From Caryophanales bacterium (GTDB lineage: Bacteria; Bacillota_I; Bacilli_A; RF39; UBA660), in the NCBI GenBank assembly GCA_016282375.1, contig JAEEKI010000015.1, positions 1 to 54,067 on the forward strand: a stretch of DNA of 54,067 nt, read 5' to 3'. The notes under the pieces were generated by a model that saw nothing but the letters and a program-made list of their open reading frames with translations, was not told where the DNA came from and made no database searches. Positions 6,162-22,533 of the stretch are shown here, piece after piece (position 1 is the stretch's first letter; each line of letters starts with the position of its first letter). Position numbers and translations under genes: made by a program.

Positions 6162-8426
6162 ATGAAAAGACAAAATACTATCATGATAATAATCACAATA
6201 ATATTTTTTTTATCATTAGTAGTTTTTGCAACCTATGCATTTTTTTCAACAGGTAATTTAAACGTTATCAATGTAGCTGCGACCAACGTATTAACTGAAC
6301 GAAATAATATGGTATTTGATGTTGTAGGGGGAGATATGTCCCTTAATATGTCGTTAGATAAAATGATGGAAGGAACTGCTGATAATTATCATGCTGCGGT
6401 TATGAACAATACAACATTAACCGTAAATTTTACTGCAAATACTCCGTATAGTGTGATTTGTACATATGATATTGTGTATGAATGGACAAGTAGTGATAAG
6501 TATACTGCTCATAGTCCATATGTTACAGATTACGAATTTACAGTTCAAGCATATCAAACATATGTAGCAAATACAATTCATGGAACCGATACAATTAGTA
6601 ATGAAACGGATTTATCTACTTTATCATATAGTAATAATAAAGTAACGGTCGTAAGTGGTGCTCAAATTTCAGGAACAGGTAGTACGACTAGTACGGCCGT
6701 ATGGAATTTAATAAGTCGGGTTTATAATGTTTATGCTGAGCAACCTGCTTTAGAGGGTAAAAATTTTTCTGGCAATTTTAAAGTTGCCAATGTCTCTTGC
6801 GTAGCAGGAGAAGTACAAACTACTGTCATAGCAAGTGGTGCTATTAATGAAAATATATCTTGGACATTAGATGATAATGGTCATTTAAAAATAACAGGTA
6901 CCGGATCAATGCCAAATTATAGTTATTCGTCAGCCCAGCCATGGAATAATTATCGAAGTTCTATTGAAAGTATAGAAGTTGATAACGGTATTACTTCGAT
7001 TGGTGAGTCTAATTTTGATAGTTTAAGTAACGCAAAATCAGTAACTATCCCAAATACGATAACGGCAATTGGCGATGGTGCTTTTGCTAGTACAGGCCTA
7101 ACATCGATAACCATTCCAGATACCGTAACTTCTTTAGGAGCCGATGTTTTTCAAAACTGCATAAATTTAACCAATGTTACTTTGCCAAACTCAATTACTT
7201 CAATTCCCACGCGAGCATTTGAGCATACAGGTTTGACATCGATAACTATTCCTGATACAGTTACTTCTATTGGCGCTAATGCTTTTAGTTATACGCGTTT
7301 TGCCTCAATAACTATTCCTGATTCTGTTACTTCTATAGACAGCTATGCTTTTTCTGATTGTAGTTTAACTTCTATCACCATTCCAAATAGTGTCACATCG
7401 ATTGGTAATGATGCTTTTAAGAGTTGTTATTTATTAACCAGTGCTACATTGCCGGATACTTTAACAACAATACCTAAGGAAATTTTTTATTTCTGTCGCA
7501 GTTTAACTAGTTTTACTATTTCTAACTATGTTACGGCAATTGGCGATGGTGCTTTTGCTTATAGTGGATTAACTTCCATCACCATTCCAAATAGTGTAAC
7601 CTCTATTGGTAGTAATGCTTTTCAAAGTACAGAACTAACTTCCATCACCATTCCAAATAGTGTAACTTCTTTAGGTAGTCGGGTCTTGATGGGGTGTAAT
7701 AACTTAACTAGTGCTACATTGCCAAGTACTTTAACAAAAATACCTGCATATACGTTTACCGGCTGTGGTAATTTGACAAACTATACCATTCCTAGTAATA
7801 TAACTTCAATTGGTGGTAGTGCATTTAGTGGTACCGGTTTAACATCTATGACTATCCCAGATACTGTAACCTCTATTGGTGATAGTTTGTTTGATCGCTG
7901 TTATAATTTAACCAGTGCGACTTTTCCAAATTTTTTTACATCAATTCCCGATAGTACATTTGAAGGTTGTAGGAGTTTAACAAACTATACAGTTCCAAGT
8001 AATATAACTTCTATAGGTAATAATGCTTTTTCGCAAAGCGGATTAACTTCGATAACTATTCCCAATACGGTAACTTCTATTGGTAAACATGTATTTTCGT
8101 ATTGTGCTGACTTAACCAGCGTTACACTCCCAGACACAATCACGTCAATTAAAGATTATGCTTTTTATGATTCAGGCCTAACATCGATAACCATTCCAAA
8201 TACTGTAACTTCTATAGGTAATTCTGCTTTTTCTGATACAGGCCTAACATCAATAACCATTCCAAATACTGTAACATCGATTGGTAATAATGCTTTTAGT
8301 TATTCTTCTTCATTATCCGCAGTAACATATAAAGGTAATACATATACAACTAAATCGGGATTTACGTCAGCATATGGAGGAACATTAGGAACAAATGCGT
8401 TTAGGGGTACAGCATTAGGAACGTAA
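6162..8426 (+). CDS. BspA-like leucine-rich-repeat surface protein
   Basis: A predicted exported or membrane-anchored protein of 754 residues. The N-terminus has a hydrophobic helix (about 7-29) ending in FATYAFFSTGN, like SipW-dependent or TasA-like signal regions. Residues about 35-220 form a domain with the signature CTYDIVYEW. The same domain appears in the proteins starting at 27748 and 53644. From about residue 240 a repeat array begins: roughly 20 BspA-type (LRR_5) repeats of the form LTSITIPNTVTSIGxxAF. BspA-like proteins are surface adhesins in other bacteria. No LPXTG or C-terminal anchor is seen, so the N-terminal helix probably holds it. SD is TAGGAG; TATAAT lies at 6133-6138. Confidence 0.85.
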   Translation: MKRQNTIMIIITIIFFLSLVVFATYAFFSTGNLNVINVAATNVLTERNNMVFDVVGGDMSLNMSLDKMMEGTADNYHAAVMNNTTLTVNFTANTPYSVICTYDIVYEWTSSDKYTAHSPYVTDYEFTVQAYQTYVANTIHGTDTISNETDLSTLSYSNNKVTVVSGAQISGTGSTTSTAVWNLISRVYNVYAEQPALEGKNFSGNFKVANVSCVAGEVQTTVIASGAINENISWTLDDNGHLKITGTGSMPNYSYSSAQPWNNYRSSIESIEVDNGITSIGESNFDSLSNAKSVTIPNTITAIGDGAFASTGLTSITIPDTVTSLGADVFQNCINLTNVTLPNSITSIPTRAFEHTGLTSITIPDTVTSIGANAFSYTRFASITIPDSVTSIDSYAFSDCSLTSITIPNSVTSIGNDAFKSCYLLTSATLPDTLTTIPKEIFYFCRSLTSFTISNYVTAIGDGAFAYSGLTSITIPNSVTSIGSNAFQSTELTSITIPNSVTSLGSRVLMGCNNLTSATLPSTLTKIPAYTFTGCGNLTNYTIPSNITSIGGSAFSGTGLTSMTIPDTVTSIGDSLFDRCYNLTSATFPNFFTSIPDSTFEGCRSLTNYTVPSNITSIGNNAFSQSGLTSITIPNTVTSIGKHVFSYCADLTSVTLPDTITSIKDYAFYDSGLTSITIPNTVTSIGNSAFSDTGLTSITIPNTVTSIGNNAFSYSSSLSAVTYKGNTYTTKSGFTSAYGGTLGTNAFRGTALGT
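7030..8320 (+). repeat. Tandem leucine-rich-repeat coding array
   Basis: About 20 in-frame repeats of roughly 66-72 bases encode units such as TSITIPNTVTSIG. Some neighbouring units, for example around 8180-8290, are nearly identical at the DNA level. That would allow slippage or recombination to change copy number. Confidence 0.8.
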
Positions 8427-8451
8427 TGTAGTCGCATTTAGAATATAAAAT

Positions 8452-8478
8452 GGGTATAGAAAAATACCCGTTTTTTTT
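8452..8478 (+). terminator. Terminator after the LRR surface gene
   Basis: GGGTAT (8452-8457) pairs with ATACCC (8464-8469), followed by G and eight T. It separates the surface gene from the ATPase-like cluster. Confidence 0.85.
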
Positions 8479-8500: not shown

Positions 8501-8530
8501 TTGACTATTATACTGCTTTTTTGATACAAT
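8501..8530 (+). promoter_or_regulatory. Promoter of the ATPase-like cluster
   Basis: TTGACT (8501-8506) and TACAAT (8525-8530) lie 18 bases apart. Transcription should begin near 8537 and could cover the whole run of closely spaced genes to 22268. I see no convincing terminator inside that run. Confidence 0.75.
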
Positions 8531-8557: not shown

Positions 8558-11500
8558 TTGAAAAACAAATCATTGTTTGCCTTAATAGTTGTAAGTTTTT
8601 TACTATTCTTTGGGCTTATTTTTTCTGTTTATAGAATTACAACTAAAAAAGCAGAAACTTTCTATGCGGATGGATATATTAGTTTGAGTGATTTTGAATC
8701 TTCTGAAAAGGTTTATTTTGCTAAGGGAACTAATTATAAGAGAGGCTATAGTAAGCAAGTTATTTTTAAAGATACGGAAAATGTTAAGCAAGAGGTCTCA
8801 AAATATTCATTTGTCTTTTATGATAATAAATCCATTAATTATTTAACTGATGGTGTATTAATGGATTTGGATGGTATTAGCGAAAATTTTATTCCTTACT
8901 ATAACATTAAAAGCAATTACTTAATTGAATATAAAGATGGTAAATATGTTATTGATGGTAAAAATAAAGACGTTATTTTAAATAACTTTATTGGTAGAAT
9001 TAATGATCAGAAATATGTTGTAGCTGGTAATAATCTAAAATTAAAAGTTAGTAGTTCGGAAGAATTAATATCTGGCTATTATTTTGAACTTAATTTTGGC
9101 GAAGGGAATTTGGTTAAGATTGATAATACTGATATAAGTATTGAAACCGCGAGCGATGAATGCTATATCATGGTGGGTGACAATGTCAAATTAGATTTAA
9201 GCGAAAAGAATATTTACTATAAAGATGAAGTAAAGGCTAATTTAGCAGAAATCATTATTGATAATGACAGTAACATTGATATTCAATATCAAGAAAAACC
9301 TGATACTGGTGAAGAACCTGGTGAAGGTGGTGAAAATGGAAATGGCAACGGTGATGGCAATGAAGTTAAGCCAACACCAATAGAGTATGAAACGGAATAT
9401 CATACAGAAACAGTTATTGAATACAAGAATGTGCCATTTGTGGAAGTAATAAATAGTGATAGTAATTCACATCAAATATCTTTGGATTTCCGAGTAATCG
9501 ATCAAAATTCTTTAATAACGGGAACGGTTAAAGTTCGTTACACGAATATTAAAACTGGATATACAGAAGTAAGAGAATATAGTGAATATCAAGGAATTAT
9601 TAATTATATTATTGATAATTTACCAAGCAATAGTGAATTCTTAATTAGCATATATGCTTCATATGTTAGAAATGATAATATTTATACTGATTATCGGATG
9701 TTCCAAAGAATCTATACAACTAAAACACTAGGTGTAACCCTTGCTAAAGATTATGTTACTTCATCCGAAGCGTCTTATAAAGTTTCTTTTGATAGTGATG
9801 CTGGCTATGAATCTGTAACTGTTACTTTATATGATCGTTCAGGTCATAGCGTAGATAGTAAAGTAGTTAATCGTTCAGCATCTGGTTCTTATGTGATATT
9901 TGATAATTTAAATAGTGATGAAAAGTATAGCGTAGTAGTTGAGCAATTCAATTATGGTAATTTTGTATATAACTCTGATGATTATATTGAAAGTGTAGTT
10001 ACGACTTTAAAGAAAAATCCATTTAAGTCTGCCGGTATAGTAGTACCAGATCCAATTGCAATTATTAATAAAAAAGATTATACTGTTAAATTTAGTCTTG
10101 GGGAAATTGATGATGTTAATAATTCAATTCAAAAGGTTATATATAATGTTTATAATGATGAAGATGATTCACTAGTGGATTCATTTGAAAAAGACAATAT
10201 AACTGATGAAGAAATTGTTATTGGCGATAAGATTAAAGCCTATATTGATGGTGTTGCTCAAACGTATTATTATACGGCAACGATTACTATTCAAGATAAT
10301 GAAAAATTAATCGATTATACAACCAATAAGAGTAACAAATTTAATATTGAAGCTAAAATTAGTCCGACATTATCATTTGAATTAGAGGACTTAACGGCAA
10401 ATACAGCACGAGGTTTATTTATCATTAGCGACGTTGATAATACAATTGATACGACTAAGCCTGTATCTGTGGAATATACTGACAGCTTAGGTAATAAGAA
10501 CACCAAACCTCTTCAATATAAAACATGTCCAGCTGGTCATAGTTCAACAACTAAATGCGTAGAGATGTATATTGATACGCTTAATAGTGATGATATTTAT
10601 ACTGTTGGATTGATGGCTTATGTTGATACAAAAGATGAAGACATTACACCAGGAAACACTTTGGTAGGGGCTATTAAATTAAATACCGAAAAAGCTGATA
10701 TTGTTCTTACAGATATATCGGCTCGTGATTTAGAGATTGAGGAAGCATCTACAAAGATGTTTGAGGTAAATGTCCAATTATTATTAGATAGTTCAACTAG
10801 TGAAACAGTCAAAGATAACATGTCTGGCTTTGATATTATTCTTTATGAAGGCGCCGATTATACAGGAACATACTTAGCAACAATGCATGTCAGTGGTAAT
10901 AGTGAAATTGTTAATAATTATTTTGACAATCCTAAGACATTAACTTTAAGTGATTTCAATTTAACTATTGATGATCTTCGGACAATGCATATGACACAAG
11001 GTACGCAAATGACTAAACGTTATACCATTCGTCTTACAAATGGTGTAAGCGGCAGTGATTACGTTGAATTTAGACCAAGTATGTTTACTTTTGAAATTAA
11101 TCCCGCTTTACTTGATATTTTAAATGGTAATTGTTCTATTGAAGTTACACCTATTGCCAATGCTAGCTTACCAAATAATGAAAAAATACCAAATTTATAT
11201 GATGATACAATCGTGGGTTTAAAAGTAACACCAACCTTTAGCAACAAGTCATATGCTCGAAAGATTAATTTCTACATTGTAGATGTTACTAGTAATGTAA
11301 ATAATTATGAATTAGTCGAAGGACATTATGCTCGTGCTTCTTTCAATCTGGACTTATTAGAAACAAGTACTATTCCTGAGTATAAGTTTTATATGAGTGA
11401 TGAGAGCCTATATGTTAATAATGCTCAATATTTAAGAAGAGGAAGAGTATATAGAGTGTTATATACTGTCGAGTTAGATTTAAATAAAGATGGTATTACG

Positions 11501-14500
11501 GATATTGTTTATCCATTCTCTGACACTGATGTTGGTACTCCGGAACCAGTTGTATCTGATTTTGTTCAAATTCCTAAACAAAATCCTTCGGTTATGGCCT
11601 TCCCATGGGAAAGTGATAGTACTTCAATAACTTATAAGTATTATGCTGATGATCCTGATAATGCCCTTGGTAATGACTTTGATGTATTCTATAAAGTAGG
11701 GGCAAATACTAAGAAAGGCGAGAAAATAGAATGTGTTAATTCTACGGGAGCAACTAGTTATACATCCAATTACTCATGCGTAAGATTCAATGATTTAGTA
11801 ACTGGCGATGATTATGAAATTGTAGTTAAGCCTACCTTAATCGCTAGTGAAGCAGCTGATAATATGGGCATTAATCATTACATATTTGAAGGTACTAATA
11901 GTCTAAGTGCTTTAAGTTATGAAATTATCAAAGAGGGTAGTCAACCAAAATATGATAATATCTTGGCTTTAAGAATAAGTGATACAGATGATAATAATAA
12001 GCATTTAAATACCATTGCTTATTATACAGTGGAGTTGAGCCTTAGTGGTCAAAACAAGAAGTTCAAAATCGATAATATTAATAATAGTGAATCTACAAGT
12101 CCAATTAGTTCTAATATAATTAATTATAAAGATGCTAATAATGATATCACATGGAGAACTAGCGATAGCGATACTTCTTTAAGAAAAACAGCTTATGTTA
12201 GTTCATGTGAAGGGGATACAGGAACTTGCGTATATATTGATTATTCAAAATTATATCTATCCGATAAATTTAAAAACTATTTTATGCCTTTTAAAAATCA
12301 AACTATTACTGTTTCTTTAAGTGCTACATATGATAGTGGTGTTGTTGGTTATAGAGTTAAACAAGCTCAAAATAAATATGCTATTCAAGTAGTTGCTAGT
12401 GATAGTATTGTCTTTAAAAATGAAATCATTAATAATAAGTACTTTATTTTAAATAACAATAACGTTGGTAATAATAGCATAGTTTTCAGCGATTCTGCGT
12501 TATCGGCTGCTTATCTATATGATGCAGCTCAAAATGGTTTTGTAGATGATCAATCAAGCGATAGAACACCTGGAAGTGGTAGTCTATACTTTATTAACTC
12601 TATATATTCTAATCTTACAACTAATCAAAATCGTAACTTTGTAAATCTTGATTATCGCGTTAATCATCAAGGAATTTTGGTTAATTTGGGTACTGCACCT
12701 GGTGTAACTGTGCCAATAGTTGTTAAGGAATTAGCTGCTTCTAGTGTGGGTACAGATGTTGATTTTAGTTTCAGTAGAATTGTTCCATCTCTAAATATTT
12801 CTCTTACTTCACCAACTTTAAATGGGGTTAAACTTAATATGAGTTTATCTGGTGTAACGTCAGATGAAATATTTACGGAAAATGGTAAAAAGTATGTTTA
12901 TCTAGAGTTATTTGATGATACTGAAACCAATATTAAAAATCTACGCATTAATATGAATGAGTTAACTGAACAAACTGGTACGGTTAATAATAATCAATAT
13001 GTTATTACTGGTGACTGGGATGATAGTGCTTATGCTAGATATAAATTTGATTTAGTATCTGTAAAGGTCAATAATACTAAAGTTGATACTAATGTATATT
13101 CATATGATTATAAGACAGGTACAATTGTCTTTAAGAGTGCTGAAAATGGTGGTATGAATATTTCCAATGGTACGTCTATTACAGTTAATTATCGAGTTGT
13201 AATAGATAATTTAATTCATAATAGTGATTATCATATTAAGGCATATGTTAAGATGAGCAGTGCATCTGATAAGGTATATCTTGCAGGTAATAATGGCACT
13301 TATCAAACTTTAAATCATGCCTTTAAAACAAAAAATACTGATCAAGTAAGTGTTCAAAATGCTAACTTTGATGTTGAATCTGACTTAGATTATGCTACAA
13401 GAAGATTAATAACAAGATATAATGTGGATGACATCGTTGGTATTGATAATTTTGTTTATGAAATTTGTAATAGTAATAATCTTTGCGTTGATGTAACTCA
13501 ATATGCAACTTGTGTTGATGATTATAATCATTTTGATGGTTCATGTTTTACTAAAGAAACTGGATATTATAATACACTTGTTAAACATGACATTAGTATT
13601 CATGAGAACTATGATTTCCAATTTAATACGACATATACTTTGAAAATAAAGGCTATGGTAACGGAAAATAATACGCAAAATACTTATGATATCTATAGTT
13701 CAGATTTGATGGTTAGAGCGCTTACAATGCCTACATTACAAGTTGTAAAGAAGAGCCATTTTGATGCTAATAATCAACCGTATTTACAATTTGATGTAAC
13801 ATTTTATGATCCTGATCGTGTTGTAAGTATTCCAACGGATGGTGTATCTGCTGGTACATATTCATATTATTTAGCAACTGGTCCTGGAAAAGTTCAAATT
13901 CAAAATACTGGTCATATCGAAGAAATAGTGAAGAATAACCATGTTTATACAGCAAATATAAATTATGATAATCTTAACACTTTAACAGAATACTATTTGA
14001 TTGTTAATTATAATACGCATGCTAATAATAAAGATGGCTTAGTTAATGAATCTTTCTCAATTCCATATTTAATTTATACGCTTGATGATAATGGTATTAG
14101 TATAGGTAAACTTGAGTATCAAGCTACTAAAATGCAAACTATTTTGAAATTTGGTTATGCAACGAATATTTTACAAGAAAAAATACTTGATAGTAATAAT
14201 CAATTAATTGATGATCCTAATCAAGAAGCTTATGTAGCTGGTATTAATTATTCAATTACCAGAAAAAGTGGTGATAACCAATTTAGGATGGATGGCGAAA
14301 TTATTTTCAGTGATAGTAGCCATATTGATATTAAAGAAGATGATTCATCACTTGGTGATAAATATTATCAATTGACAATTAATCACGGTGTTGATGATAC
14401 CTATTCAACGGGATATCCTGTTACAGCTGGTTATAACATTATCTTTAGGTTCTATATCGGGGGAAATGTTGCTAGTGCTTTAAATACTAGTGAGTTATGT

Positions 14501-14599
14501 TCTGAGAATAACGTTTCCAATTATTGGGATGAAGTAAACAATAAGTGTTATATTCTAGATTCAAAACAATATAATGCTGATACAATTTATGGAGGATAG
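8558..14599 (+). CDS. Giant membrane-anchored surface protein of the ATPase-like cluster
   Basis: About 2,013 residues from a TTG start at 8558. AGGTGAT sits at its usual distance upstream, and the GTG at 8549 lies inside that SD. A single N-terminal membrane helix (about 8-30) is followed by a beta-rich domain to about 240 and an acidic Gly/Asn/Glu linker near 247-275. Beyond that is a long series of Fn3/Ig-like beta domains, with repeated phrases such as YTTKTLGVTL and NLNSDEKYSVVV. No C-terminal anchor or catalytic motif was found, so most of the chain should lie outside the cell as a fibre. The plan matches the 452-residue protein encoded next, and the two genes are 6 bases apart. The role is unknown; adhesion or force transmission is my inference from the linked ATPase genes. 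Confidence 0.8.
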   Translation: MKNKSLFALIVVSFLLFFGLIFSVYRITTKKAETFYADGYISLSDFESSEKVYFAKGTNYKRGYSKQVIFKDTENVKQEVSKYSFVFYDNKSINYLTDGVLMDLDGISENFIPYYNIKSNYLIEYKDGKYVIDGKNKDVILNNFIGRINDQKYVVAGNNLKLKVSSSEELISGYYFELNFGEGNLVKIDNTDISIETASDECYIMVGDNVKLDLSEKNIYYKDEVKANLAEIIIDNDSNIDIQYQEKPDTGEEPGEGGENGNGNGDGNEVKPTPIEYETEYHTETVIEYKNVPFVEVINSDSNSHQISLDFRVIDQNSLITGTVKVRYTNIKTGYTEVREYSEYQGIINYIIDNLPSNSEFLISIYASYVRNDNIYTDYRMFQRIYTTKTLGVTLAKDYVTSSEASYKVSFDSDAGYESVTVTLYDRSGHSVDSKVVNRSASGSYVIFDNLNSDEKYSVVVEQFNYGNFVYNSDDYIESVVTTLKKNPFKSAGIVVPDPIAIINKKDYTVKFSLGEIDDVNNSIQKVIYNVYNDEDDSLVDSFEKDNITDEEIVIGDKIKAYIDGVAQTYYYTATITIQDNEKLIDYTTNKSNKFNIEAKISPTLSFELEDLTANTARGLFIISDVDNTIDTTKPVSVEYTDSLGNKNTKPLQYKTCPAGHSSTTKCVEMYIDTLNSDDIYTVGLMAYVDTKDEDITPGNTLVGAIKLNTEKADIVLTDISARDLEIEEASTKMFEVNVQLLLDSSTSETVKDNMSGFDIILYEGADYTGTYLATMHVSGNSEIVNNYFDNPKTLTLSDFNLTIDDLRTMHMTQGTQMTKRYTIRLTNGVSGSDYVEFRPSMFTFEINPALLDILNGNCSIEVTPIANASLPNNEKIPNLYDDTIVGLKVTPTFSNKSYARKINFYIVDVTSNVNNYELVEGHYARASFNLDLLETSTIPEYKFYMSDESLYVNNAQYLRRGRVYRVLYTVELDLNKDGITDIVYPFSDTDVGTPEPVVSDFVQIPKQNPSVMAFPWESDSTSITYKYYADDPDNALGNDFDVFYKVGANTKKGEKIECVNSTGATSYTSNYSCVRFNDLVTGDDYEIVVKPTLIASEAADNMGINHYIFEGTNSLSALSYEIIKEGSQPKYDNILALRISDTDDNNKHLNTIAYYTVELSLSGQNKKFKIDNINNSESTSPISSNIINYKDANNDITWRTSDSDTSLRKTAYVSSCEGDTGTCVYIDYSKLYLSDKFKNYFMPFKNQTITVSLSATYDSGVVGYRVKQAQNKYAIQVVASDSIVFKNEIINNKYFILNNNNVGNNSIVFSDSALSAAYLYDAAQNGFVDDQSSDRTPGSGSLYFINSIYSNLTTNQNRNFVNLDYRVNHQGILVNLGTAPGVTVPIVVKELAASSVGTDVDFSFSRIVPSLNISLTSPTLNGVKLNMSLSGVTSDEIFTENGKKYVYLELFDDTETNIKNLRINMNELTEQTGTVNNNQYVITGDWDDSAYARYKFDLVSVKVNNTKVDTNVYSYDYKTGTIVFKSAENGGMNISNGTSITVNYRVVIDNLIHNSDYHIKAYVKMSSASDKVYLAGNNGTYQTLNHAFKTKNTDQVSVQNANFDVESDLDYATRRLITRYNVDDIVGIDNFVYEICNSNNLCVDVTQYATCVDDYNHFDGSCFTKETGYYNTLVKHDISIHENYDFQFNTTYTLKIKAMVTENNTQNTYDIYSSDLMVRALTMPTLQVVKKSHFDANNQPYLQFDVTFYDPDRVVSIPTDGVSAGTYSYYLATGPGKVQIQNTGHIEEIVKNNHVYTANINYDNLNTLTEYYLIVNYNTHANNKDGLVNESFSIPYLIYTLDDNGISIGKLEYQATKMQTILKFGYATNILQEKILDSNNQLIDDPNQEAYVAGINYSITRKSGDNQFRMDGEIIFSDSSHIDIKEDDSSLGDKYYQLTINHGVDDTYSTGYPVTAGYNIIFRFYIGGNVASALNTSELCSENNVSNYWDEVNNKCYILDSKQYNADTIYGG

Positions 14600-14605
14600 G
14601 GTAAT

Positions 14606-16227
<1,622 letters not shown>

Positions 16228-16230
16228 AAT

Positions 16231-16983
16231 ATGGAAGTAATTGTTCTAATAATCATTATTTCTTTATTGACATTAATATTGTTTCTGGCTTTAAAAAAGT
16301 TGATTGACAATTTAACTAATGACAGTAAAGAATACTACTTTCGTAAGGTTCAAGATTATGATGAAAAACTATTTGAAAAAGAGCAACAACTTAATAATCT
16401 TGAATCTTCAGAAGAAAGTATAGAAGAAGAGGAAGAGGAAAATAGGGAATATACTAGTCGGAGAACGGACATTGATAAAGATTTTTTATCAACAATAAAT
16501 AATACGGAATATGAAACCACGAATGCCTTAAAAATAGCCAATCGGGTTGATGAAATATTTCAAGTTGATGAAGAAAAAGTTATCAAAGATTTTGTGGCTA
16601 AGTGTAAATTTAATAAGAACTATAAGATTTATGAAAATCTCCAAGCTCGTTTTAGTCCTAATTTGATTTATAAACTAAAAATGTTAAATAGGGATGGTCA
16701 AATAAAGGCTATTGGTAAGATGCTCAGTGATGAGGAATATGAAGTTTTTACGGCTTATGTTACCACTAGAAAATTTAAGTTAGATAAGTTCTTATTGGAT
16801 TTAGATTCGGTTGTTAAGAATAACCAACCGGAAATTGAAGTAATCGTAGGCAATCGTTCAAAAAATTACGATTACATATCTCCATATATTAAAACCACTT
16901 ATAGCGAAGATGTATATAAGGGAATAATAATTAAATATCAAGATCGTATATACGATTATAGTATAAATGAAAGGGATGTATAG
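16231..16983 (+). CDS. b-delta fusion-like stator subunit
   Basis: A 250-residue protein. Residues 3-25 form one membrane helix, as in subunit b. An acidic stretch with a run of Glu follows (about 60-72), then a helical region about 95-195. The C-terminal part IEVIVGNRSK...YKGIIIKYQDRIYDYSI resembles the C-terminal beta hairpin of subunit delta (typical pattern GG..I..GD.V.D.S). It sits between c and alpha, where b and delta lie in normal atp operons. I therefore read it as a b-delta fusion that ties F1 to the membrane. Direct similarity is weak, so position carries much of the case. Confidence 0.65.
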   Translation: MEVIVLIIIISLLTLILFLALKKLIDNLTNDSKEYYFRKVQDYDEKLFEKEQQLNNLESSEESIEEEEEENREYTSRRTDIDKDFLSTINNTEYETTNALKIANRVDEIFQVDEEKVIKDFVAKCKFNKNYKIYENLQARFSPNLIYKLKMLNRDGQIKAIGKMLSDEEYEVFTAYVTTRKFKLDKFLLDLDSVVKNNQPEIEVIVGNRSKNYDYISPYIKTTYSEDVYKGIIIKYQDRIYDYSINERDV

Positions 16984-16984
16984 T

Positions 16985-19904
<2,920 letters not shown>

Positions 19905-19912
<8 letters not shown>

Positions 19913-20423
19913 GTTGAAAGAGGTTCTAAATAGTTATTTATACTTTGGTGTAGTTTTTGCTATCTTTTTAGTCTTTCTTGCTTATGTAATTTTATTCATA
20001 AGTGGTAAGAAAAAAAGAAAGTCTTATTATCTATTTGGACTTCTTATTGACTTTAATAATGAACAAATATTAGCTTTATCACTCATTATTATTAACTACT
20101 TATTATTGGTTTATACTTTATTATTTAAAGTTAGATTATCGGCAGCATTTACTTTAATTAGTTTGCTATCAATACTAGTAGCATTTGCGATTATTAATCG
20201 CTTTAGTTATGTGTTAATTAACGGGGTAATTAATTTGGTTAATGTTGGTATGATATATTTAGCTAATTTAATTAATACTTTGCGTTTAGAAAATGCCGGA
20301 TCTTCATATTATATATTACAGATTTTAATCAACGCTTTTGGTGTTTTATTTTTTACTTTTACATCCATAAAGTTTTTTAGAAATATTCAGGGAAAGGAGT
20401 ATCAACGTGAAAAAAATTCATAA
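19905..20423 (+). CDS. Five-helix membrane protein of the ATPase-like cluster
   Basis: A 172-residue protein with about five membrane helices (near 11-33, 56-75, 79-97, 102-122 and 133-157) and a basic cytosolic loop (KKKRKS) after the first. It occupies the gap left by the absence of a recognisable subunit a. I do not find the subunit-a signature (R-L-x-x-N with a following Glu). One Arg (R99) lies between the third and fourth hydrophobic stretches. It could be a stator or scaffold that replaced subunit a, or an unrelated anchor. The gene overlaps both neighbours by a few bases, so it belongs to the operon. Confidence 0.6.
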
Positions 20424-21123
20424 TTTTATTCAAAAAAATTATATTGCTTGTACCGTTTTAGGTGTGGCTTTATTAGTGATTCTTGCTTCCCTTATTACGA
20501 TAGGTATTATTCGAGGTAATCGTCATAAAATTGTGACATCTAAGGATACTTTGAATTTGTATCAATATAATGGCTCTCTAAAAAATACTTTTACAGGTAA
20601 AGTGGTTTATGGGGATGATATGATTACTAGTCTTACAAGTGATACTTCGCTAGTGGATAGTGTTATGTATTATGCTGATAGTTCAAAGATAATTATTCCC
20701 TTTAAAAGTAAAATAGTATTTTATTATCGGGATAATTTAGCATATAGTTTACCTAAATATAGTACTTTGGAAAGCAAAAAAGATATTAAAACATTAAATT
20801 GTGATGGAACAGAGCAAAATGTCGATAGTTTTATTATTTATGATGGTGTTGATACTTATATCCTTCCTGATAAGAGTATTTTAACTCTTGATGGGGATAA
20901 GATTGAACTAAGTGCTTTAAGTTATATTATTGCTAATCGCGGTTCATTAACATACTATGATTATGATAAAGATGCTCTAGTTATCAAAGAGAATATTAAA
21001 GTAGCTAATTTACATATGAATAATGCTGATTTTGATTTATATAACGATGTTGTTGTTTATAATAATAAAACGCTTATTATAGGCAATGATATTGATAATT
21101 ATCCGGTTTATAAGGAGGATTAA
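20407..21123 (+). CDS. Membrane-anchored surface protein, third ectodomain subunit
   Basis: A 238-residue protein from a GTG start preceded by GGAAAGGAG. It has one N-terminal membrane helix (about 15-36) and a beta-rich extracellular domain of about 195 residues. This matches the first two parts (anchor plus beta domain) of the proteins at 8558 and 14606, without their linker and Fn3-like tails. I treat it as the minimal member of the trio. No enzyme motif is visible. Its place between the five-helix protein and gamma argues that it is part of the same complex. Confidence 0.7.
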   Translation: MKKIHNFIQKNYIACTVLGVALLVILASLITIGIIRGNRHKIVTSKDTLNLYQYNGSLKNTFTGKVVYGDDMITSLTSDTSLVDSVMYYADSSKIIIPFKSKIVFYYRDNLAYSLPKYSTLESKKDIKTLNCDGTEQNVDSFIIYDGVDTYILPDKSILTLDGDKIELSALSYIIANRGSLTYYDYDKDALVIKENIKVANLHMNNADFDLYNDVVVYNNKTLIIGNDIDNYPVYKED

Positions 21124-21125
21124 AA

Positions 21126-21467
21126 ATGGAAAAAGACTATGTTGGTAAAACAATTAAAACAGAAAATGGCGAAGTATTTGTTGTCCTTGGCCAAGTTAAA
21201 TATAAAAATATTCAATGTGTCTATGCCATGAAAACGACGAATGATGATAGTGAAGGAGAAAAACGCTTTTTCCAAATAACGAATGGTGAAAAGAAGCAAT
21301 TAGTAGCGGTCGAGAGTAAAAAAATGGTTGATACATTACTTGATATTATGTTTAAAGAAAATATGAAAACCAAAAAGCCTCGGAAGATTAAAGATAATGA
21401 AAGCATAACGGATTATTTTGCTTATTTAGATGATTATTATAAGACTAGGGTAAATACCGTTTTGTAG
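21126..21467 (+). CDS. Small cytosolic protein of the ATPase-like cluster
   Basis: A 113-residue soluble protein with a strong SD (AAGGAGG). Its first 75 residues look like a compact beta domain (KTIKTENGEVFVVLGQ), vaguely like DUF1292 proteins, and the rest is basic and helical. I do not recognise it. Tight packing between the third ectodomain gene and gamma suggests that it binds the cytosolic part of the complex. Confidence 0.6.
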   Translation: MEKDYVGKTIKTENGEVFVVLGQVKYKNIQCVYAMKTTNDDSEGEKRFFQITNGEKKQLVAVESKKMVDTLLDIMFKENMKTKKPRKIKDNESITDYFAYLDDYYKTRVNTVL

Positions 21468-21476
21468 GAGGTTTGT

Positions 21477-22268
21477 ATGCGGAATATTAAACCAATCGTC
21501 CAAGTTATGAACCTGTTTTCTTTAGTAAGAATCAATGCTGCTAAAACGCGAGTTGAAGAGTTTGGTATTACGAGTTCGGTTTTAACAAAGATTATATCTT
21601 CGATTATGTATAACAATAATATTGTTTTAGACAAGAATACGATTATACCTGATCCTGAAAAACCTGTTTTAAATATTTATATTGCTTCTGACTTTGGTTT
21701 TTGTTCAACTTATAATCAAGTTGTATCTAACAAAATTAAAGAAACAAAAGATGATTATAAAATAATTGTCGGTAAAAAGATTACATATAATGATGATAAA
21801 GTAGTATTACGATTATCTAAAGAGAACTTCTATAGTGATTTACCAACGATTAAAGATTTTTTAGTTAAGGCAGTTAATAATCGCGATTATCGTGAGATTA
21901 ATATTTATTATAATCATTATTATAACTTTTCACGTAGTGATTTTACTAAATTACAAGTTTTTCCTGTAGAATATAAAGAAGAGTATAAAGAAGACGTCGA
22001 CTTTCTTGTTGAGACAGATATTACTAGTTTTATTAATAATTTAATTGCTTATTATGTTTGTTATCAATTAGAGATTTGTGAAATATTTTCTTGGGCTTCT
22101 GAAAACGTTATTCGTAATACTATGACTTCTGAGTCATTAAAGAAAATTGATGAGTTAGAGGCCATTGATAGAGTAAAGGCCATAAGAAAACAACGGGAAA
22201 AAAGTTTGAAGAAAAATATCGAGAATTCAAAGAAAGTTTTATTTACAAATACGGAAGATGATATTTGA
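21477..22268 (+). CDS. F1-ATPase gamma subunit-like protein (central shaft)
   Basis: A 263-residue protein, slightly shorter than normal gamma (about 285). The central motif IASDFGFCSTYN corresponds to the conserved gamma segment xxSDRGLCGxxN. The C-terminal helix begins SENVIRNTMTSES, like the SEHxxRMxAMxxA helix of gamma. The N-terminal helix is present but divergent (VQVMNLFSLVRINAAKTRV). In F1 this subunit is the rotor shaft inside the alpha-beta ring and rests on c and epsilon. Here the gene is last in the cluster, not between alpha and beta. It ends at the promoter of the next gene. Confidence 0.8.
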   Translation: MRNIKPIVQVMNLFSLVRINAAKTRVEEFGITSSVLTKIISSIMYNNNIVLDKNTIIPDPEKPVLNIYIASDFGFCSTYNQVVSNKIKETKDDYKIIVGKKITYNDDKVVLRLSKENFYSDLPTIKDFLVKAVNNRDYREINIYYNHYYNFSRSDFTKLQVFPVEYKEEYKEDVDFLVETDITSFINNLIAYYVCYQLEICEIFSWASENVIRNTMTSESLKKIDELEAIDRVKAIRKQREKSLKKNIENSKKVLFTNTEDDI

Positions 22269-22313: not shown

Positions 22314-22502
22314 ATGAATAAAAAAGGTCAAGCACTAGTGGAATATATTTTAATTGTAGCTCTTCTTAGTGTGATTGTTATTGGCTTAGTAAACTATTTT
22401 GGTGGCTATTTAAAAGATGTTATTACCAAGTCTTCTTGTTCAATGCTTGGTCAAGAATATGTTGCAGGTGATAAACCTGGCGAAGGATCTTGCTCAGAAT
22501 AA
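22314..22502 (+). CDS. Flp/Tad-type prepilin
   Basis: A 62-residue type IVb (Flp) pilin precursor. The very short leader MNKKG is followed by QALVEYILIVALLS, the classic prepilin peptidase site with Glu at +5 and a hydrophobic assembly helix. The remaining 30 residues carry two cysteines and a Gly-rich end. It is the likely major subunit for the Tad machinery at 29002-33463, about 7 kb away. It has its own promoter and terminator, which fits the high expression expected of a pilin. Confidence 0.85.
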   Translation: MNKKGQALVEYILIVALLSVIVIGLVNYFGGYLKDVITKSSCSMLGQEYVAGDKPGEGSCSE

Positions 22503-22510
22503 TTGTTTAT

Positions 22511-22533
22511 AACAAGGGTGACCTTGTTTTTTT
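22511..22533 (+). terminator. Terminator after the pilin gene
   Basis: AACAAGG (22511-22517) pairs with CCTTGTT (22522-22528) over a 4-base loop, followed by T residues. Confidence 0.85.

Follow-up and report, generated by a model that had tools for sequence, protein, structure and literature searches.

A conserved F1-derived ATPase module joined to surface fibre proteins and apparently uncoupled from ion transport

Background

F-type ATPases are textbook ion-coupled rotary machines. N-type ATPases are additional F-type operons of unusual gene order found beside a normal one, and their c rings keep the carboxylates.

The closest described systems that do surface work are the type 2 and type 3 F1-like ATPases of mycoplasmas, which drive surface machinery (PMC11864180, PMC12994834). 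Both types are mycoplasma-specific and lack b, c and a subunits (PMC3369863), their clusters contain neither a c ring nor b-delta (PMC3369863, PMC11864180), and their alpha subunit lacks the N-terminal helix that binds delta in the stator (PMC11864180, PMC12994834). The type 2 G1-ATPase of Mycoplasma mobile is the gliding motor of a wall-less cell, and its GliD protein has been proposed to be a derivative of a b-delta fusion (PMC11864180). The type 3 F1-like X0 system (MMCAP2_0575-0581) is associated with the antibody-capturing and antibody-cleaving MIB-MIP system and consists of extra, non-canonical alpha, beta, gamma and epsilon subunits beside membrane and surface proteins, among them a 12-TM protein (protein 1), protein 2 and protein 5. 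A different precedent comes from the V-ATPase with Ac45 and the (pro)renin receptor, in which the c ring encloses single-pass luminal proteins that rotate with it (PMC7414150).

Here we describe an F1-like cluster that can be compared with each of these systems. It lies in a stretch of 54,067 nucleotides (contig JAEEKI010000015.1, assembly GCA_016282375.1), called the window below, from a Caryophanales bacterium with a draft genome of 1.08 Mb in 24 contigs (85% complete, GC 30%). The small genome and the genes it carries suggest an uncultured bacterium of the gut, within class Bacilli. No published description of such a module was found in the open-access literature.

Gene cluster and surroundings

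Positions 8558-22268 hold eleven co-directional genes on the plus strand in one block, with intergenic gaps of -17 to +17 bp and the order GIANT-MED-c-bdelta-alpha-beta-epsilon-TM5-SMALL-113-aa protein-gamma. ORF mapping places every gene described in a first-pass annotation on this one strand and at the positions first noted. The features are as follows.

8447-8474, terminator-like stem preceding the cluster
8501..8530, plus strand, promoter-like site TTGACT-18-TACAAT, TG-extended, 10/12 matches, upstream of and adjacent to GIANT
8558..14599, plus strand, GIANT, single-pass ectodomain protein of about 2,013 aa with an N-terminal TM helix, an all-beta membrane-proximal domain (MPD), a Gly-containing linker and a long FN3-like fibre
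14606..15964, plus strand, MED, single-pass ectodomain protein of 452 aa and short GIANT paralogue (AlphaFold2 pLDDT 79.6)
15982..16227, plus strand, c-like ring subunit of 81 aa with Ala at the position of the ion-binding Glu (PF00137, E 2.6e-6; HHalign to canonical c 97%)
16231..16983, plus strand, b-delta-like stator of 250 aa with an N-terminal TM helix and a delta-type C-terminal motif (HHalign 82% against the canonical delta C-terminus and 19% against b)
16967..18304, plus strand, alpha subunit, 445 aa (PF00006, E about 9.5e-67)
18304..19656, plus strand, catalytic beta subunit, 450 aa, with catalytic motifs (PF00006, E 3.9e-64)
19646..19912, plus strand, short epsilon-like subunit of 88 aa, beta-sandwich part only, in a conserved place after beta (HHalign to the canonical epsilon N-terminal domain 22%, weak)
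19905..20423, plus strand, TM5, polytopic membrane protein of 172 aa, candidate degenerate subunit a that lacks the essential Arg (AlphaFold2 pLDDT 80.7; Foldseek; alignment)
20407..21123, plus strand, SMALL, single-pass ectodomain protein of 238 aa, joined with TM5 into one protein at a Lachnospiraceae locus and probably at another
21126..21467, plus strand, soluble protein of 113 aa without Pfam match, found only in the genus of the window
21477..22268, plus strand, gamma subunit (central shaft), 263 aa (PF00231, E 1.5e-22; HHalign to canonical gamma 99.6%)
22511..22528, plus strand, terminator-like stem-loop after the cluster

Pfam recognises c, alpha, beta and gamma, and the remaining seven genes have no match above the cut-off. 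The start of GIANT was placed at TTG 8558 because relatives begin with MKNKS there; the frame is also open from GTG 8549. The promoter-like and terminator-like elements are weak support, since both scans gave results near shuffle expectation, and the number of promoter-like sites of the 10/12 type in the region is at that expectation.

The genes near the cluster include a Mur ligase, a D-Ala-D-Ala ligase, IreB and a YceG/MltG-family protein, and the host should therefore make peptidoglycan. Directly upstream of the operon, with the terminator-like stem between, a BspA-type LRR_5 surface protein of 754 aa is encoded (6162-8426); this gene is absent from the equivalent place in the nearest congener (G002, locus L032). 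A Flp/Fap pilin-like protein of 62 aa (22314-22502) begins 45 bp past gamma and ahead of the terminator-like stem; it has its own promoter-like site with 11/12 matches and is possibly part of the machine. SpoIVA adjoins GIANT in three congeners (L033, L034 and L036, with Pfam run on L036 only), which suggests that these streamlined bacteria sporulate.

Catalytic core and stator

The nucleotide-binding and catalytic motifs are intact in alpha and beta, as first read from the sequence: Walker A, the catalytic Glu and the arginine finger of the F1 core are all present, and alpha retains GDKKTGKT and the arginine-finger motif SVSRLG. The b and delta parts of a peripheral stalk appear to be combined in the b-delta-like protein, judged by its delta motif.

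Alpha carries a very long low-complexity C-terminal extension of K/E/P-rich repeats in L035 (4888-9138, open frame of 1,416 aa), L052 (845 aa) and L055 (829 aa). Split genes occur in other loci, namely beta in two ORFs (L037, 4812-6161), GIANT (L033, 10749-16759) and both alpha and beta (L077, 9956-13528), and are possibly pseudogenes or assembly errors.

The c-like subunit and TM5

The loss of the ion-conducting residue from c is the strongest point of the case. The first-pass annotation had named a ring subunit, and the c-type identity holds; the missing carboxylate had been overlooked. When 31 module sequences are aligned with 17 canonical ones, the ion-binding column has E in 16/17 canonical c subunits, while in the module it has A (14), S (10), T (5), F (1) or M (1) and a carboxylate in 0/31. 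Helix 2 as a whole has an acidic residue in 0/31 module sequences. The loop acid remains conserved (30 E and 1 D), which indicates that the alignment is in register. Lachnospiraceae c sequences outside the seed set likewise have no acid at the ion-binding position. Among solved chains, the nearest to the module protein are c subunits of F-type enzymes, with A-E-T in the aligned helix 2. Judged from these alignments, the module c keeps the c-type fold but has lost the ion-binding Glu.

A separate canonical atp operon had been proposed as a search target, together with the concern that this cluster might be the only F-type ATPase of its genome, served by a conventional subunit a elsewhere. This concern was not borne out: a single alpha/beta pair is encoded in the window genome, and PF00119 (subunit a) was not found in it (at 85% completeness) or in 18 further family genomes carrying the module. 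A match to subunit a in G037 lies on a contig (L211, G037:C25) that probably comes from a contaminating code-4 contig in the bin, because the match has three in-frame TGA codons and the contig lacks long table-11 ORFs.

By sequence, TM5 has no match to canonical subunit a (HHalign 0.8%), and no Arg is conserved in its 17 aligned rows, compared with 15/15 in canonical subunit a. The AlphaFold2 model predicts a TM helix, a short helix, two helices and two helices of 30 residues, an order that we take to be that of subunit a. When this model was searched with Foldseek, chains of 9jc2 ranked 1, 4 and 14 with TM-scores of 0.51, 0.48 and 0.44, at E values of 1.1-3.9 that are not significant. According to the PDB sequence table, 9jc2 contains subunit a of Bacillus PS3, and the chain counts fit three copies. 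The predicted fold is thus suggestive, though not significantly so, of a relic of subunit a. The five-helix membrane protein of the earlier reading is therefore present, and on its predicted fold it is possibly a degenerate subunit a and not an unrelated protein.

Surface proteins

GIANT, MED and SMALL each have an N-terminal TM helix. In the AlphaFold2 model of MED, a TM helix (6-37) is followed by a beta MPD (40-207), a disordered linker (213-264) and two FN3-like domains, and Foldseek matches these C-terminal domains to fibronectin FN3 with E about 1e-6. The TM helix, MPD and linker are common to GIANT and MED (HHalign probability 96.7% over 194 columns), and the FN3-like part of MED matches the start of the GIANT fibre (81.7%). 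GIANT gave sub-threshold matches only in Pfam. SMALL is weakly similar to GIANT and MED (HHalign 40% and 69%).

SMALL lies close to TM5 in more than gene order. In L073 a single protein of 405 aa is a fusion of TM5 and SMALL. In L225 a SMALL match of 400 aa follows epsilon and a separate TM5 is absent; the TM5 part has no profile match, and judged by its length the protein is probably the same fusion.

In two Lachnospiraceae loci the region between the MPD and the FN3 domains carries G-X-Y runs (L072 GIANT 269-316; L073 GIANT and MED), with 16 and 33 repeats in the linkers of the two GIANTs. These repeats are suggestive of collagen-like trimers and hence of trimeric fibres. The second giants of relatives have GLUG and ALK-type Gly-rich domains, which we take to be typical of surface proteins. 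The second giant of L216 (3-6281, minus strand), for instance, has a GLUG motif as well as the ALK/LTK glycine-rich domain in two stretches (PF12810, E 3e-42). A PHROGs search gave no match.

Conservation and distribution

Among 60 relatives, module-type alpha/beta pairs were found in five congeners, in one further family member (G026) and in G037 of another family, and alpha/beta are absent altogether from most of the sampled family members. Four congeners without alpha/beta have different genes beside IreB/RuvX, which is the site of the module in the window. A family-wide search gave matches in 25/291 genomes; the c subunits and scores mark two of these (L062 and L063) as canonical, so that the module occurs in about 23/291 genomes of the family; it was found in 2/392 genomes of a phylum sample and 4/299 genomes of a Lachnospiraceae-type family. 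In a scan of named genomes, relatives whose alpha is 51-63% identical turned up in Erysipelotrichaceae, other Bacilli, Lachnospiraceae, Clostridia and MAGs of Coriobacteriales. This rarity and patchiness fits an accessory trait and equally a dispensable one.

A seed set supplied the profiles of GIANT, MED and SMALL, which were then applied to loci outside it (L214-L218 and L223-L225). The block GIANT-MED-c-bdelta-alpha-(gamma)-beta-epsilon-TM5-SMALL was recovered there, in many cases followed by a second giant; contig ends truncate some of these loci, and no SMALL turned up at L214. Since the block is kept outside the profile seeds, a chance arrangement is ruled out. The proposed linkage of ectodomain and ATPase genes thus extends to distant relatives, where they still adjoin each other.

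Three larger genomes of 2.1-3.1 Mb (G323, G324 and G327) carry a canonical F-ATPase set with subunit a besides the module. The module is therefore a separate system there and does not replace the canonical enzyme.

Comparison with known ATPases

In quick trees, module alpha and beta each form one strongly supported clade (SH-aLRT 100 without L038) apart from types 2 and 3, in a sister-like placement. In the alpha tree the module groups with both mycoplasma types (SH-aLRT 90), in the beta tree with type 3 (97); the branches that meet there are long. Module gamma matches type 3 gamma with 90% in HHalign. L038, from another family (f2), is the most divergent member, has a long branch near the mycoplasma types in both trees and is a possible intermediate.

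Proteins 1 (12-TM), 2 and 5 of types 2/3 have no counterpart in the module (HHalign probabilities below 9%). HHalign gave no signal that c or TM5 gave rise to the mycoplasma 12-TM protein, or b-delta to GliD or protein 2. The MIP serine peptidase (PF01732) was found in 0/22 module genomes while both mycoplasma control genomes were positive, and the cluster proteins of the window have no Pfam match to MIB. Because proteins 1, 2 and 5 are unpartnered, and types 2/3 have no b, c or a, the module is not a member of these types.

The module and the type 3 system have in common the non-canonical F1 genes beside membrane and surface proteins, neighbouring positions in the alpha and beta trees and a patchy distribution. 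They differ in that type 3 has its 12-TM protein, protein 2 and protein 5 without c or b-delta, and the module has c, b-delta, TM5 and FN3 giants without MIP. Like the module, the type 2 motor is F1-derived and thought to drive surface machinery. Unlike the module it has no c; the membrane-anchored b-delta of the module has no detectable homology to GliD, and module beta does not have the long N-terminal addition seen in type 2. On the F1 side the module may work like types 2 and 3, and a common F1 ancestor is possible.

With the canonical F1Fo-ATPase the module shares alpha, beta, gamma, c, b-delta, probably an a-like part and conserved catalytic motifs; it differs in the missing c Glu, the missing subunit a Arg, the gene order and the added ectodomain genes. 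Like the N-type operons, the module is an F-type operon of unusual order that can occur in addition to a normal one; its alpha and beta fall outside the alternative (N-like) F-type group in the trees. The V-ATPase precedent for ectodomain proteins inside a c ring is an analogy only; that enzyme is V-type and proton-pumping, and its proteins have type I topology.

Proposed mechanism and alternatives

We judge it probable that the module works as an F-type rotary ATPase which no longer transports ions and instead drives FN3 fibres at the surface, most likely for adhesion or gliding. An alpha3 beta3 gamma epsilon head would combine with a ring of the c-like subunit, a b-delta stator and TM5 in an a-like role into a complete F-type rotary ATPase, whose ATP hydrolysis would be expected to rotate gamma, as F-type enzymes do. 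With the c carboxylate gone and no conserved Arg replacing that of subunit a, the module would move no ions; as the stator and the c-like rotor are kept without an ion site, the remaining plausible output is mechanical. Torque or strain might then cross the membrane to the surface proteins of the same operon. The TM5-SMALL fusion and the gene order tie SMALL to TM5 and so to the stator side. GIANT and MED would be candidate driven elements, a long and a short FN3 fibre of common ancestry on a shared MPD and flexible linker. What the sequences show directly is the set of genes and how it is conserved, the hydrolytic motifs, the lost c carboxylate, the lack of a canonical subunit a, the domains of the proteins and the closeness of SMALL to TM5; ring formation, rotation, the division of the ectodomain proteins between rotor and stator, and the purpose are inferred from these.

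Such a machine would move, extend or mechanically load adhesive fibres outside the cell wall. FN3 fibres and GLUG-type partners point to adhesion or surface movement, and the likeliest use would be to adhere dynamically to host mucus or particles or to glide on them. Of the roles first suggested, moving or presenting something outside the cell may hold. Cleavage finds no support: no MIP-type peptidase was found in 22 module genomes while both mycoplasma controls matched, and no protease domain was found in the ectodomain proteins of the window.

A more specific form of this mechanism is offered tentatively. In these walled bacteria the c-like ring might serve as a pure torque-transmitting bearing that holds the TM helices of GIANT and/or MED, either within it or attached to it; ATP hydrolysis would then spin or crank the FN3 fibres independently of ions.

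F1 relatives also power type III and flagellar export, and ATP hydrolysis could accordingly power secretion or passage through the wall, with the giant adhesins as co-transcribed cargo and not as moving parts. Giant surface proteins encoded alongside an ATPase are in keeping with this. Against export stand the retained gamma, b-delta and c, which make up both rotor and stator; no channel-forming component was found, and one or two loci have a TM5-SMALL fusion. A special exporter also seems unneeded, because the N-terminal TM helices of GIANT, MED and SMALL are expected to insert via Sec. We regard export as unlikely.

A mostly static complex, a regulator or anchor in which ATP turnover switches adhesin conformation on and off without continuous motion, has a parallel in a model for mycoplasma type 3 (PMC12994834). 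The disordered linkers may limit torque transfer beyond the MPD, which speaks for such a switch. Retention of the full rotor and stator set, on the other hand, suggests that rotation matters, and a static complex appears decidedly unlikely.

An ordinary but fast-evolving ion-pumping F-ATPase with an unusual ion site, placed beside surface genes by chance, is highly unlikely. It would account for c, gamma and b-delta being recognisably F-type and for the module being the only rotary ATPase in streamlined family members. It conflicts with helix 2 of c being without an acidic residue in 31/31 and TM5 without a conserved Arg, with the complete canonical F-ATPase that coexists in larger genomes, with the lack of any alpha/beta in most sampled family relatives and with ectodomain genes that travel with the module.

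Membership in the mycoplasma type 2/3 F1-like X0 systems, MIB-MIP included, is favoured by the tree placements and the gamma match, is largely refuted by the unpartnered X0 proteins, the lack of PF01732 and the lack of c and b-delta in those types (PMC3369863, PMC11864180), with long-branch attraction possible in the trees, and seems barely credible. What the earlier reading said of mycoplasmas thus stands for the kinship of alpha and beta, with that caveat, and for the lack of a c ring in their clusters; it does not extend to membership.

Conclusions

The first-pass observation is borne out, and the case for it is stronger than first stated. The module appears to be an F1-derived ATPase repurposed for surface work, conserved, widely scattered, joined to surface fibres and apparently ion-uncoupled. 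The ion-uncoupled F1-derived machines found in the literature belong to wall-less mycoplasmas only and have membrane sectors resembling nothing else. The module spans several classes of walled gut bacteria and keeps c, b-delta and perhaps a, with the ion path dropped. It could represent an intermediate stage on the way from ATP synthase to surface motor, and it makes torque transfer across the membrane a testable question. If rotation of the fibres is real, this would be a categorically new machine. For uncultured gut lineages that mostly lack an F-ATPase, the module may represent an ATP-driven system of adhesion or motility.
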